Below are positions 3,966 through 8,121 of a stretch of 40,857 nt of DNA, piece by piece. Within the stretch, counting starts at the first letter, position 1. Every line of letters begins with the position of its first letter. Source of the stretch: Pseudomonadota bacterium (GTDB lineage: Bacteria > Pseudomonadota > Gammaproteobacteria > Burkholderiales > Burkholderiaceae_C). The translations under genes and the position numbers were made by a program. Under the pieces are notes generated by a model. The model was given only the letters and a program-made list of their open reading frames with translations. It had not been told where the DNA came from and did not search any database. Location of the stretch: contig JAKAFC010000003.1 in NCBI GenBank assembly GCA_021818065.1, forward strand, positions 1 to 40,857, given 5' to 3'.

Positions 3966-4127
3966 GGTGGGCGTTGGAAAGGTCGAATGGTCGAAGGCGT
4001 GTGGACGTCGTTGTGTGGACACGGCCTTGTCGATATGTCAGCAGGATACCAGCGCCCTTTGACCCAGCGCATGCAGCCTCGCCGGATGGTGGATTGCGTT
4101 CTGACAAAGTTGGTGCATCTATGATGT

Positions 4128-4142
4128 GTGAGAATTTCCCAC
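4128..4142. promoter_or_regulatory. Related palindrome upstream of the beta-barrel gene
   Basis: GTGAGAATTTCCCAC, immediately 3' of TATGAT (4120-4125); half-site GTGGGAA shared with 7375-7391 and 7414-7430 but 2 bp shorter overall. Confidence 0.45.
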
Positions 4143-4249: not shown

Positions 4250-5035
4250 ATGTCCCATCGTCCCACCCTTCTTGCCCTCCTTCTCGCCGCTGGCGGTCTC
4301 GGCACCGCACAGGCCGAGCCGGCGCTGACCGTCGGCAACACCCTGTCGTTCTTCCAAGGCACGTTCGGTACGAGCAACACCATCAACATCCGCTATGACG
4401 CCACCGACATTCAGTACGGCGACAACAACACTTGGCGCGTCAAGCTGACGGTGCCGTATGTCTCCGAATCGGGTCTGCCCGCCAATGCCACCATCTCTGG
4501 CGGCACAGTGGTGGGCGGCGGTGCTGGCTCGACCCAGACGCGTTCGGCCAGTGGACTGGGCGATATCTGGCTGGCTGGCCACTCCAAGGTCTTCCAGGGC
4601 AGCGGTCTCACGCCCTCGGTTACGCCCTACGTCAAGGTCAAGTTCGCCACGGCCTCGGCCGCGAGTGGCCTGGGCACGGGCAAAAACGACTATGAGGTCG
4701 GGGTCGGGTTGCAGCAGGTTGTGGGGAGCAACTGGTTCCCGTTCGCCAACCTGGGCTATCGCGTCGTCGGCAATCCAGCGGGCTACGCCTTGCGCAATAT
4801 CGGCATCTACCAGGTCGGCGCCAGCTACGCACCGAGCCAGCAGAACGTGGTCACGCTGATGTATGCCGGCTCGCAAGCCATGGTGGCGGGTGGTTCAGCA
4901 CCGTCGGATGTGATTCTGGCGTGGAATTACAACCTCACGCCCAAGGGCAGCGGCTTTCAGGTCTACCTGGACAAGGGCCTGAGCCACGGCAGCGCCAACT
5001 TCGGGGTCGGCATCGGCGGGCAGATCGTATTCTGA
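4250..5035 (+). CDS. Exported beta-barrel-like outer membrane protein (transporter/porin-like)
   Basis: Signal peptide (MSHRPTLLALLLAAGGLGTAQA), alternating beta-strand pattern, Gly/aromatic-rich, C-terminal ...GIGGQIVF ending in Phe. Confidence 0.72.
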   Translation: MSHRPTLLALLLAAGGLGTAQAEPALTVGNTLSFFQGTFGTSNTINIRYDATDIQYGDNNTWRVKLTVPYVSESGLPANATISGGTVVGGGAGSTQTRSASGLGDIWLAGHSKVFQGSGLTPSVTPYVKVKFATASAASGLGTGKNDYEVGVGLQQVVGSNWFPFANLGYRVVGNPAGYALRNIGIYQVGASYAPSQQNVVTLMYAGSQAMVAGGSAPSDVILAWNYNLTPKGSGFQVYLDKGLSHGSANFGVGIGGQIVF

Positions 5036-5053: not shown

Positions 5054-5079
5054 AAGGCCAGCCTATGCTGGCCTTTTTT
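5054..5079. terminator. Intrinsic terminator shared by convergent genes
   Basis: Perfect 9-bp stem AAGGCCAGC-CTAT-GCTGGCCTT followed by TTTT; the minus-strand stop codon (5078-5080) lies at the end of the T tract. Confidence 0.85.
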
Positions 5080-6475
5080 ACGGCCTCGGCACGCTCGGCA
5101 GTTGTGGGCTCGCTGGGATGTTGGGCAAGCTGACACTGGGCGGCGTGACGACCGCAGGCGCAACGCTGGGCACCTGCGGCGGTGTCATTGCAGGTGGGGG
5201 TAGCGGCGTGCTGATGCTGGGCATCTGCGGAGTCGGCGGCACCTGAGGGATAGCGGGGAGTACCGAGGATGGGACACCGGGCAGCGACACCATCGGCGGC
5301 ACCGGCGTAACGATGGAGGGCATCTGCACCGCAGGTCCTGTCAGAACGGCACCTGCCGCGTTCGCCGCAGCCTGACTGCGATCGGACGACATGGACGGTG
5401 CATGGCTTGGCTGCGTGGCTGCAAGCGGCGGCAGGGCGTACTGCATGGCGTCGATCTGCGGAATCACCCGTTGCACGGCGACCGTCGTCGCACTGCGCAG
5501 AACGCCATCGATCAAGGTCGGGGCGGCCTGCAGTGCTGCGGCTCGCAACTGCGCATCCAGCAAGGGCGTGGCGCCCAGCACGTGCAAACCATGCGCCTCC
5601 AGCCCCTGCGGACCGGATTGCAGATAGCCAGCCATGATCACCCGCGTGCCCACGGGTGCCTTAACCGCTGGCGCCGTCATGATCGCCGTGATGACATCGC
5701 CGCTGCGGCCCTGCACACCGCGCAGGACCACATCACCGCCCGGCGCGGGCCAGACTGGCACAGCGCCTGGCGCCACGCCGAACCACTTGCCGTGGACACG
5801 TACCTGATGCGCGGCGACATTCACCGCGTCGACCCGGCCTCGCAGCAGCAAAGGCGTCTGCGCGTTCGCCATGTGTGCAGTGGTGAGACGCACCACACGC
5901 AAAGCTTGCCAACGCCCATCACCCTGGTCGAGCGCGCTGACGCGCACCACGTCGCCGACCGCCAAAGCCTCCCGCGGCAGGGCTTGGTCTTCCGCATTAC
6001 GCACCTGGGTGTCGGGCGACAGCACCACCGTCTGCCCCAGCACCCGCACCTGACCATTGGCGCGATCGATCTGCGTCAGCCGTCCAATCAGGGCGTGGTC
6101 GATGCTCACGTCGACTGCCTCCAACCGCCCGCCGTGCTCGACGGCCTGCACGCGGACCATGTCGCCCAGGTGCAGGCTGCGCTCGGTGCCCGGCTGGCCG
6201 TCCACGCTGTAGCGCACCCCATGCGGCAACTCGTACTCTCCGCCGTTGACAAAAATACTGCCAAAACGCTGCACCGGACCGATTGCAAGAATGCCCGTGC
6301 CACCAATGCCCCCGGGGTGGATGCCCGTACCCCCGATGCCGCCCGGCTCGATACCGGTGCCTCCCATGCCTCCGGGGGTCGCTGCCAGAGACCCAGCAAG
6401 GCTCAAAAGCATGGCAATGCACAGCAACCCCAAGCCGTGCAGCGCCTGCAAACCATAGCGTTGCAGCCGCCTCAT
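5078..6475 (-). CDS. DUF5666-type exported protein with GGIGGTGI.P repeats and Pro-rich tail
   Basis: Signal peptide, 3x GG(M/I)GGTGI(E/H)P, then FGSIFVNGGEYE and repeated 'IDRANGQVRVLG...VGDVVRVSA' OB-like units; C-terminal P/V/S-rich tail. Confidence 0.75.
   Translation of the reverse strand: MRRLQRYGLQALHGLGLLCIAMLLSLAGSLAATPGGMGGTGIEPGGIGGTGIHPGGIGGTGILAIGPVQRFGSIFVNGGEYELPHGVRYSVDGQPGTERSLHLGDMVRVQAVEHGGRLEAVDVSIDHALIGRLTQIDRANGQVRVLGQTVVLSPDTQVRNAEDQALPREALAVGDVVRVSALDQGDGRWQALRVVRLTTAHMANAQTPLLLRGRVDAVNVAAHQVRVHGKWFGVAPGAVPVWPAPGGDVVLRGVQGRSGDVITAIMTAPAVKAPVGTRVIMAGYLQSGPQGLEAHGLHVLGATPLLDAQLRAAALQAAPTLIDGVLRSATTVAVQRVIPQIDAMQYALPPLAATQPSHAPSMSSDRSQAAANAAGAVLTGPAVQMPSIVTPVPPMVSLPGVPSSVLPAIPQVPPTPQMPSISTPLPPPAMTPPQVPSVAPAVVTPPSVSLPNIPASPQLPSVPRP
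6284..6373 (-). repeat. 30-nt coding tandem repeat encoding GGxGGTGIxP x3
   Basis: GGMGGTGIEP GGIGGTGIHP GGIGGTGILA. Confidence 0.9.
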
Positions 6476-7326
6476 GTCGATTCTCCGGTTGCGCCATCGG
6501 ACAGCGTATGCGGCGGCATGTCCTCCTCGTAGTAATACACGCCCAGGCGCAGACGCTTTGAGGGCTCTGCGTCAGCCGCGCCGGTCGCAGCGGCTTGCGC
6601 CCGCTCGGCGCGCGAGACCTGCTGGTACGCCTGCTGCAGCAGGCGTTCGCCGAGCCGCCGCAGATCGTCGCGCACAGCCTCGGCCACTTGCGGCGGCAAG
6701 GCGTCGAAATACACCGACTGTTCGAGGTAAGGCGTCTGCCCCTCTAAGTTATGCACTGCCGCGCGCAGGTGATCGCCGATGTGCGCGCCCATGAAACCCA
6801 ACCGGTCTTGCGGCAGATCCGACACATAACCACGGCGCGCCAGCGCCACAGTGTCTCCCTGCAACTCAACCACACCGGCACGCAGCAACTCGTCGAGCAC
6901 GGTACGTGGACGCATGTCGGCCTTCACCAGCCGCACCAGACTCTCGAAACTGGGCAGCGGCTCCTGCGCCCGCTGCGGCAGCGCACGCGGCTCGCCTGCG
7001 GCGTCGTGGTAGGCCTCGCAGGCCACCCAGGCGGCCACCACCTGCGCCGAGATATTGGCGCCATGCCGCAGCGCGATCTCGCCGGAACCGTCCTGCAATT
7101 CTTCGCGCAGCCGCCGCACCTCTTTGCGATGGATGCCACTGAGCAGGCTCACCCGGCTATCGGTGGGCACCGGCTTGCCACTGCGCGCGTCGAGAGCGAT
7201 GACTTCGCCCACATAGACGAACTTGAGCAACTCAGCCAGCGCCCCATACGTCCAGCCTTGAGTGATCAGGTAGCGGACGAAGGGACGCAGGATGGACAGT
7301 GCCGCCGACTTCAGAGCATCAGACAT
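6472..7326 (-). CDS. DUF6502-type protein, putative DNA-binding regulator
   Basis: RPFVRYLITQGWTYGALAELLKFVYVGEV ... PTDSRVSLLSGIHRKEVRRLREEL resembles the DUF6502 N-terminal HTH-like region; ATGA overlap with the DUF5666 gene. Confidence 0.72.
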   Translation of the reverse strand: MSDALKSAALSILRPFVRYLITQGWTYGALAELLKFVYVGEVIALDARSGKPVPTDSRVSLLSGIHRKEVRRLREELQDGSGEIALRHGANISAQVVAAWVACEAYHDAAGEPRALPQRAQEPLPSFESLVRLVKADMRPRTVLDELLRAGVVELQGDTVALARRGYVSDLPQDRLGFMGAHIGDHLRAAVHNLEGQTPYLEQSVYFDALPPQVAEAVRDDLRRLGERLLQQAYQQVSRAERAQAAATGAADAEPSKRLRLGVYYYEEDMPPHTLSDGATGEST

Positions 7327-7369: not shown

Positions 7370-7397
7370 TTGACGTGGGAAAGTTTTCCACTATGAT
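7370..7397 (+). promoter_or_regulatory. Sigma70-like promoter of the repeat-protein gene
   Basis: TTGACG (7370-7375), 16-bp spacer, TATGAT (7392-7397). Confidence 0.65.
7375..7391. promoter_or_regulatory. Palindromic putative operator 1
   Basis: GTGGGAAAGTTTTCCAC, near-perfect inverted repeat filling the promoter spacer. Confidence 0.6.
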
Positions 7398-7413
7398 AAC
7401 CCCAAGCGTGTCT

Positions 7414-7430
7414 GTGGGAAATTTTTCCAC
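7414..7430. promoter_or_regulatory. Palindromic putative operator 2
   Basis: GTGGGAAATTTTTCCAC, 39 bp downstream of operator 1, same half-sites. Confidence 0.6.
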
Positions 7431-7476: not shown

Positions 7477-8121
7477 ATGTCCAAGACCCGTACCCTCACC
7501 GTTGTGTCCGCCGCGATCGCCGCCGCGTCGCTGTCGTTCGGCATTGCCAGCGCACAGACGGCCATCCGCACGGTGCAGACCTCGCAAACGTCTGCCGCCG
7601 CGAGCAGCGACGCGGCTGATGGCCAAACCAAGGCGACGGTACAGACCCGCCAGTCCACCGCCGCGACCCAGAGCGTGACGACACGCGATGCCAACAGTGC
7701 CGCCGCGACCGGCACTCCTACGCAAACCCGCGCGCAAGTGCAGACGCGCGAAACCGCGCAAACCCGAACCACGGCACAAAGCCAGCAAGGTGCGCCTGCC
7801 GCCACCGCGCAGGGCCAGCACGGCCAGGGGCTTGGTTTGCAAACCGCCACACTGGCGGGGGCCGCCGCGCAAACGCCAAGCCTTCCAGCGCTCGCTGCGC
7901 CAGCAATTGCCGTACCGGTGGTAAATACGCCTGCGGTGCAGGTGCCTGCGGTCAACACACCCGCGGTAACCGTGCCTTCGGTGACCACGCCCGTCATCAC
8001 CGTGCCGGTGGTGAACACCCCTGCCGTCAATGTGCCAAGCGTGGCAACCCCTGCTGTGACCATGCCGGTGGTGAATGCGCCCTCCATCCAACTGCCGAAT
8101 GTGATGCGGCCGCAGATGTGA
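7477..8121 (+). CDS. Exported low-complexity protein with C-terminal pentapeptide (xPxVx) repeats
   Basis: RBS AGGAGA at 7465-7470; signal peptide ...SLSFGIASAQT; Q/T/R-rich middle; repeats VPVVNTPAVQ VPAVNTPAVT VPSVTTPVIT .... Confidence 0.8.
   Translation: MSKTRTLTVVSAAIAAASLSFGIASAQTAIRTVQTSQTSAAASSDAADGQTKATVQTRQSTAATQSVTTRDANSAAATGTPTQTRAQVQTRETAQTRTTAQSQQGAPAATAQGQHGQGLGLQTATLAGAAAQTPSLPALAAPAIAVPVVNTPAVQVPAVNTPAVTVPSVTTPVITVPVVNTPAVNVPSVATPAVTMPVVNAPSIQLPNVMRPQM
7912..8118 (+). repeat. 30-nt coding tandem repeat (decapeptide = 2 pentads), about 7 units
   Basis: In-frame VPVVNTPAVQ/VPAVNTPAVT/VPSVTTPVIT/VPVVNTPAVN/VPSVATPAVT/MPVVNAPSIQ/LPNVMRPQM. Confidence 0.9.

Follow-up and report, generated by a model that had tools for sequence, protein, structure and literature searches.

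The window, i.e., the whole stretch of 40,857 nucleotides that was analyzed, carries a leftward gene of the DUF6502 family with a DUF5666 gene behind it and, facing it, a divergent gene encoding a secreted repeat protein. Two palindromes lie in the promoter region between the divergent genes, and a third, weaker one precedes a gene for an outer-membrane-like protein (Table 1). The DUF6502 product matched its Pfam family over residues 4–271 of 284 with a score of 83.3 bits (gathering cut-off, 27); the Pfam entry, PF20112, gives no function for this domain. The DUF5666 and DUF6502 genes probably share one operon, and in 50 of 126 loci the gene immediately following DUF6502 encodes a DUF5666 homolog. 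The DUF5666 protein, in its C-terminus, and the repeat protein both contain proline-valine repeats of the PSV/PAV type, suggesting that the two may act at the same place. The product of the outer-membrane-like gene gave no Pfam match.

Table 1. Positions of genes, promoters and palindromic sites in the window
Feature	Position	Strand	Remarks
Third, weaker site GTGTGAGAATTTCCCAC	4126–4142		upstream of the outer-membrane-like gene; absent from the sequence-only reading
Outer-membrane-like protein gene	4250–5035	+	assigned solely from the character of its sequence; candidate third target
DUF5666 protein gene	5078–6475	-	Pfam 1.8e-13; overlaps the DUF6502 stop codon
DUF6502 (PF20112) gene	6472–7326	-	Pfam 1.7e-23; proposed DNA-binding autoregulator
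Predicted helix-turn-helix TDSRVSLLSGIHRKEVRRLREELQ, DUF6502 codons 55–78	7093–7164	-	recognition helix ~66–78
Sigma70-like promoter TTGACG-16-TATGAT	7370–7397	+	serves the divergent secreted repeat-protein gene
Putative operator 1, GTGGGAAAGTTTTCCAC	7375–7391		takes up the whole spacer between the rightward -35 and -10 hexamers
Possible leftward promoter TTCCCA-16-TATCAT	7393–7420	-	DUF6502 operon; 9/12 consensus matches
Putative operator 2, GTGGGAAATTTTTCCAC	7414–7430		in the rightward transcript, from ~+10 to +26; covers the possible leftward -35 hexamer
Sec-secreted protein gene with PAV/TP repeats	7477–8121	+	divergent, proposed target; beside the operators in 9/9 Thiomonas loci

Palindromes and promoters of the divergent region

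Both 17-mers stand exactly where the sequence-only reading had placed them, with their starts 39 bp apart. The rightward promoter is composed of TTGACG (7370–7375), a 16-bp spacer (7376–7391) and TATGAT (7392–7397), with 10 of 12 consensus matches; two promoter-like sites were observed against 0.1 expected. Given these coordinates, palindrome 1 spans the entire spacer and reaches one base into the -35 hexamer, and palindrome 2 starts 17 bp beyond the -10 hexamer, at approximately +10 from the expected start. The earlier description of a promoter with one palindrome in its spacer and a second copy just past the start point is thus borne out. As for the possible leftward promoter, the AT-rich block of the rightward promoter could, on the minus strand, supply its -10 hexamer; its weak -35 hexamer would be located within operator 2 and its start within operator 1. 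According to the alignment, the minus strand at the place of the leftward -10 hexamer reads TATAAT in most other Thiomonas species.

When up to three mismatches to the consensus were allowed, the window contained six strand-matches (three places) against 0.07 expected, and none of the shuffles reached six, which is far beyond chance. In the whole 2.68 Mb genome, the matches comprise only these three places and four other weak ones.

Both 17-mers are imperfectly symmetric: the G at position 5 is opposite a T at position 13, where a C would be needed. In relatives, too, this is the position at which the symmetry is lost, which would be expected if a protein binds the site. The palindromes could alternatively form RNA hairpins in the transcript, serving as an attenuator or a stability element, since operator 2 is within the 5' leader and could pair with itself. 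However, operator 1 is placed in the promoter spacer, outside the rightward RNA, the operator 1 consensus of the other Thiomonas loci, GTGGGAAATTTTGCCAC, disrupts a stem pair, and the leader folds no better than shuffled sequences (z 0.35 and -0.34); moreover, the sites of another clade lie over a -10 hexamer. The placement of operator 1, the broken pairing in relatives and the absence of excess folding practically exclude RNA hairpins.

Conservation of the sites in Thiomonas and in the DUF6502 family

The DUF6502 gene or an ortholog with ~80% identity was found in 9 of 13 genomes of Thiomonas, the genus of the window judging from the orthologous loci (eight besides that of the window). An alignment of homologous regions, proposed earlier as a check of conservation, showed that both palindromes are kept in 9/9 orthologous Thiomonas loci, 39 bp apart in all but T. 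bhubaneswarensis (L011), where the distance is 37 bp. The nine loci share a frame close to CTTGACGTGGGAAATTTTGCCACTATTATAAACACAAGCG followed, after a few bases, by GTGGGAATNWTTACCAC; TTGACG is invariant, and the -10 hexamer is TATTAT or TATGAT. In the 13 genomes, the strict pattern GTGGNAANNNTTNCCAC is confined to the operator spot of DUF6502-A, with no matches in the four genomes that have no ortholog, and a reversed control pattern gave no matches in any of the 13. The pair of genome G002 was missed by the strict search because each of its sites deviates by one base.

The sequence-only reading had also allowed for looping between the two operators, and this part is not supported. The distance of 39 bp corresponds to 3.7 helical turns and differs in T. 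bhubaneswarensis, and many members of the family have a single site. LacI-type looping repressors likewise have two similar operators around one promoter, but the known loops of LacI-like repressors are longer than 39 bp, whereas the distance here is short and unphased. As 39 bp is short and does not make up whole turns, looping is unlikely, and independent or neighbouring occupation of the sites is the simpler explanation.

The DUF6502, DUF5666 and repeat-protein genes are present or absent jointly in Thiomonas, and the binder can therefore not be identified by presence and absence alone. This co-occurrence, which fails to separate the genes of the module, would also suit an unlinked regulator that controls the entire locus by binding to the palindromes, with DUF6502 merely as one of its targets. 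A 56-residue fragment resembling the C-terminus of the repeat protein, possibly a remnant, was found in a Thiomonas genome without DUF6502 (G009:C83:14306-14458). The second DUF6502 paralog of Thiomonas has 40% identity and no strict motif; it shows a conserved half-degenerate ATGGGAAAAAATAACAT and lies beside a divergent lipoprotein gene. In the same genome as the window, the second DUF6502 paralog (L024; G000:C75:27201-28007) has a half-degenerate ATGGGAAAAATTCACAT upstream and a divergent SACGGGGG lipoprotein gene alongside, and is conserved across Thiomonas.

Outside Thiomonas, the Thiobacillus ortholog (L047, 60% identity) is preceded at a distance of 41 bp by a perfect site, GTGGGAAAATTTCCCAC, in a TTGACG-site-TACAAT layout as in Thiomonas, and followed by a DUF5666 gene as in the window; the available upstream sequence comprises 201 bp, with one site within it. 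Homologs of the outer-membrane-like gene occupy the same neighbourhood in L040, L044, L045 and L047. GTGTGA-N5-TCCCAC stands before the orthologous gene in three Thiomonas loci (L040, L044 and L045), and a perfect GTGGTAAAATTTACCAC before the Thiobacillus homolog. Thiomonas and Thiobacillus thus share the site at both promoters of this gene neighbourhood.

Further analysis covered 125 DUF6502 loci (one of them counted twice), selected by protein similarity and not by motif, with the start codons of relatives set by rule. The pattern TGGRAWNNNWTYCCA was present within 300 bp upstream of DUF6502 in 31 of the 96 loci other than Thiomonas A (shuffle mean, 0.02), whereas the other 227 kb of these loci contained it just twice. 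The site is ~126-fold enriched upstream of DUF6502 family-wide; the relaxed pattern was defined after a first look at the loci, and the Thiomonas-derived pattern had shown likewise. TGGRA-N5-TYCCA was found upstream in 44/125 loci and the version with a 6-bp spacer in 10, and a scan of spacers from 1 to 11 bp over the 125 loci gave zero matches at 1–4 and 7–11 bp. The loci with sites include other families, orders and classes of Pseudomonadota. It is true that AT-rich palindrome cores are commoner in promoters, which are AT-rich. However, the excess over expectation in the window, the nearly fixed spacing in 9/9 loci and the family-wide enrichment make functionless chance palindromes a reading of vanishing probability.

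In 301 Burkholderiaceae genomes, GTGGGAWNNNWTCCCAC occurred at 19 places, 12 of which lie immediately before a DUF6502 gene. Of the 15 genomes with this sequence, 14 hold DUF6502, compared with 121/301 overall. At three of the seven remaining places, in three congeneric species, the sequence is followed by the same CGG lipoprotein gene, which is likely a member of the regulon. GTGGGAT-N3-ATCCCAC was seen before an unlinked CGGS lipoprotein gene, likewise in three species of one genus (L159:2498, L160:2557 and L161:2493), and this gene is likely a regulon member. In genome G074 (L158:2474), GTGGGAAAATATCCCAC was observed with a Rieske ring-hydroxylating oxygenase gene on one side and an operon of exonuclease VII small subunit-like and polyprenyl synthetase genes on the other. 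Three tandem GTGTGA/TCCCAC-type sites are located upstream of the DUF6502 start in L048 (-101, -67, -38) and L051 (-143, -109, -80), which belong to two genera and have identical site spacings of 34 and 29 bp.

Two known sequence elements with some resemblance to the sites were considered and rejected. MraZ sites are direct TGGGN repeats at the mraZ operon; the TGGG core is common to both, whereas the repeats here are inverted, have a 5- or 6-bp spacer and lie upstream of DUF6502, only there in Thiomonas and mostly so family-wide. One half is TTTTCCAC-like and resembles a DnaA box; the half conserved in relatives, though, is TTNCCAC/TCCCAC, and the strict motif is unique to the locus in Thiomonas.

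The DUF6502 protein and co-variation of its recognition helix with the operator

The AlphaFold model of the N-terminal 165 residues of DUF6502 (pLDDT 85, pTM 0.81) shows helices at 27–48, 56–63 and 67–78 and a second helix-helix-hairpin unit at 127–162. DUF6502 is accordingly modeled with a helix-turn-helix unit at 56–78, the second helix of which starts at the co-varying H66-R67-K68. S57, G64 and R67 are invariant in 30 diverse members of the family, and the S60-x3-G64-x5-V70 spacing is conserved. The full-length model built from 9 sequences was poor (pLDDT 53). No helix-turn-helix family was matched by sequence in the Pfam search; a KfrA_N match (0.028) was discounted, being weak and confined to the C-terminal helical part. 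Foldseek returned no solved structures at E <= 0.001, the best DNA-binding ones being the winged-helix proteins CRP/NtcA with a TM of ~0.35 (maximum 0.37). Searching the PDB with a profile of 30 members produced nothing beyond chance matches (sucrose phosphorylase, ParA), and no relatives were found in viral contigs.

According to the tree of 125 proteins, the operator form tracks the DUF6502 clade. Sites with a 6-bp spacer belong to one clade only (SH support 99), nearly all members of which have T/S-RK-D/E-V recognition helices. In a clade of 30 proteins with mostly NRREV/TRREV-type helices, the TGGGA operator is absent, and an unbiased enumeration of inverted repeats identified TGTGC-N5-GCACA in 11/30 of its loci and in 0/95 others. 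Compared with the TGGGA form, the geometry of this operator is kept and the half-site is altered. The recognition-helix residue H66 was associated with the 17-bp operator (Fisher p = 4e-12, uncorrected for kinship), and the label set required 17 changes on the tree against 47.7 when shuffled. Since the operator classes cluster in clades, many of these counts are non-independent and inflated by kinship; the three forms map to clades and represent few independent events. Three GTGTGAAAGTTTTACAC-like palindromes, possibly a fourth operator form, were seen upstream of a DUF6502 gene with a TGVHRAEVKRL helix (L104; -253, -221 and -196). At strict thresholds, none of the three forms was found in ~50/125 loci, which counts against the main reading.

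Co-variation of half-site and spacer with the recognition helix points to DUF6502 itself as the binder and would be unexpected for an unrelated regulator. DUF6502 paralogs of one genome (G103) also differ in their operator variants, and across Pseudomonadota the sites are nearly restricted to the regions upstream of DUF6502. Control by an unlinked regulator is thus very unlikely.

Proposed regulation by DUF6502

DUF6502 as the binder is strongly supported by the sites being present in 9/9 loci, specific to the locus in 13 genomes and found before distant DUF6502 genes. The twin palindromes are very probably operators of the adjacent DUF6502, a predicted helix-turn-helix protein that would repress its own operon and the divergent gene. 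Of the earlier proposal of a repressor operator pair bound by DUF6502, the binding part gains from the conservation of the sites, their near-restriction to DUF6502 loci and the helix co-variation, and the repressor part is probable from promoter geometry. As read from the sequence, DUF6502 would be a local autoregulator whose own promoter region holds a palindromic operator that is conserved along with the gene.

In Thiomonas and most of the TGTGC clade, the operator immediately precedes a -10-like hexamer. The operator of the HRRDVR clade overlies the -10 hexamer of the divergent lipoprotein promoter, with TTGAC upstream (signal-peptide calls on the divergent lipoprotein genes are crude). Every one of these positions would occlude polymerase, so repression together with autorepression is most likely. 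DUF6502 might instead bind the sites and activate or switch one of the divergent promoters: operator 1 lies between the -35 and -10 hexamers, as at promoters activated by MerR-type proteins, and the poor leftward -35 hexamer could need help. MerR proteins correct spacers of 19–20 bp, whereas the rightward spacer has an ordinary 16 bp and is not overlong; a MerR-like mechanism is therefore unlikely, and a MerR-type spacer regulator was rejected as a candidate. The HRRDVR-clade operator over the -10 hexamer, with a good TTGAC -35 upstream, also fits occlusion, and activation or switching is on the whole doubtful.

Under repression by DUF6502, the protein, probably dimeric, would bind two TGGGA-type half-sites 5 bp apart. 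Occupancy of operator 1 would block both the core promoter that drives the repeat-protein gene and the point at which the DUF6502-DUF5666 transcript begins; occupancy of operator 2 would add occlusion past the rightward start and on the leftward -35 hexamer. Via the third site, DUF6502 would most likely repress the outer-membrane-like gene too. Repression would last until a signal, possibly envelope-related, lifts it. The sites, their placement at the promoters, their conservation, their near-restriction to DUF6502 loci and their co-variation with the recognition helix are computational results; to these the scheme adds, as inferences, physical binding, dimerization, repression over activation, and the signal.

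The arrangement resembles that of TetR-, MarR- and LysR-type regulators: the regulator gene and its target are divergently transcribed, the promoter region between them contains palindromic operators, and autoregulation is proposed. It differs in that the sequences are unrelated: DUF6502 matches no known regulator family in Pfam or the PDB profile search, and its modeled fold shows only a weak resemblance to winged-helix proteins.

The nature of the proposed targets, namely, the secreted repeat protein, DUF5666, the outer-membrane-like protein and CGGG lipoproteins, suggests an envelope or surface function. It is likely that DUF6502 proteins are Pseudomonadota-wide DNA-binding autoregulators with an evolvable operator code set by the recognition helix (TGGGA-N5-TCCCA, TGGGA-N6-TCCCA and TGTGC-N5-GCACA), which would control DUF5666 and divergent secreted, lipoprotein and outer-membrane genes as an envelope module. 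A search for literature on DUF6502, PF20112 and GTGGGA/TCCCAC operators, outside of which most subscription literature lay, found nothing relevant, and as far as could be searched, both the role of DUF6502 as a DNA-binding autoregulator and its operator code are new.

A domain of unknown function that is present in ~40% of the sampled Burkholderiaceae genomes and scattered in Pseudomonadota would thereby become a family of transcription factors that is open to testing and for which a DNA code is predicted. DUF5666, several families of secreted repeat proteins and CGGG lipoproteins would be linked to one control system. The changes of half-site and spacer that are matched to recognition-helix changes may represent natural specificity switches for studying the co-evolution of regulators and operators.
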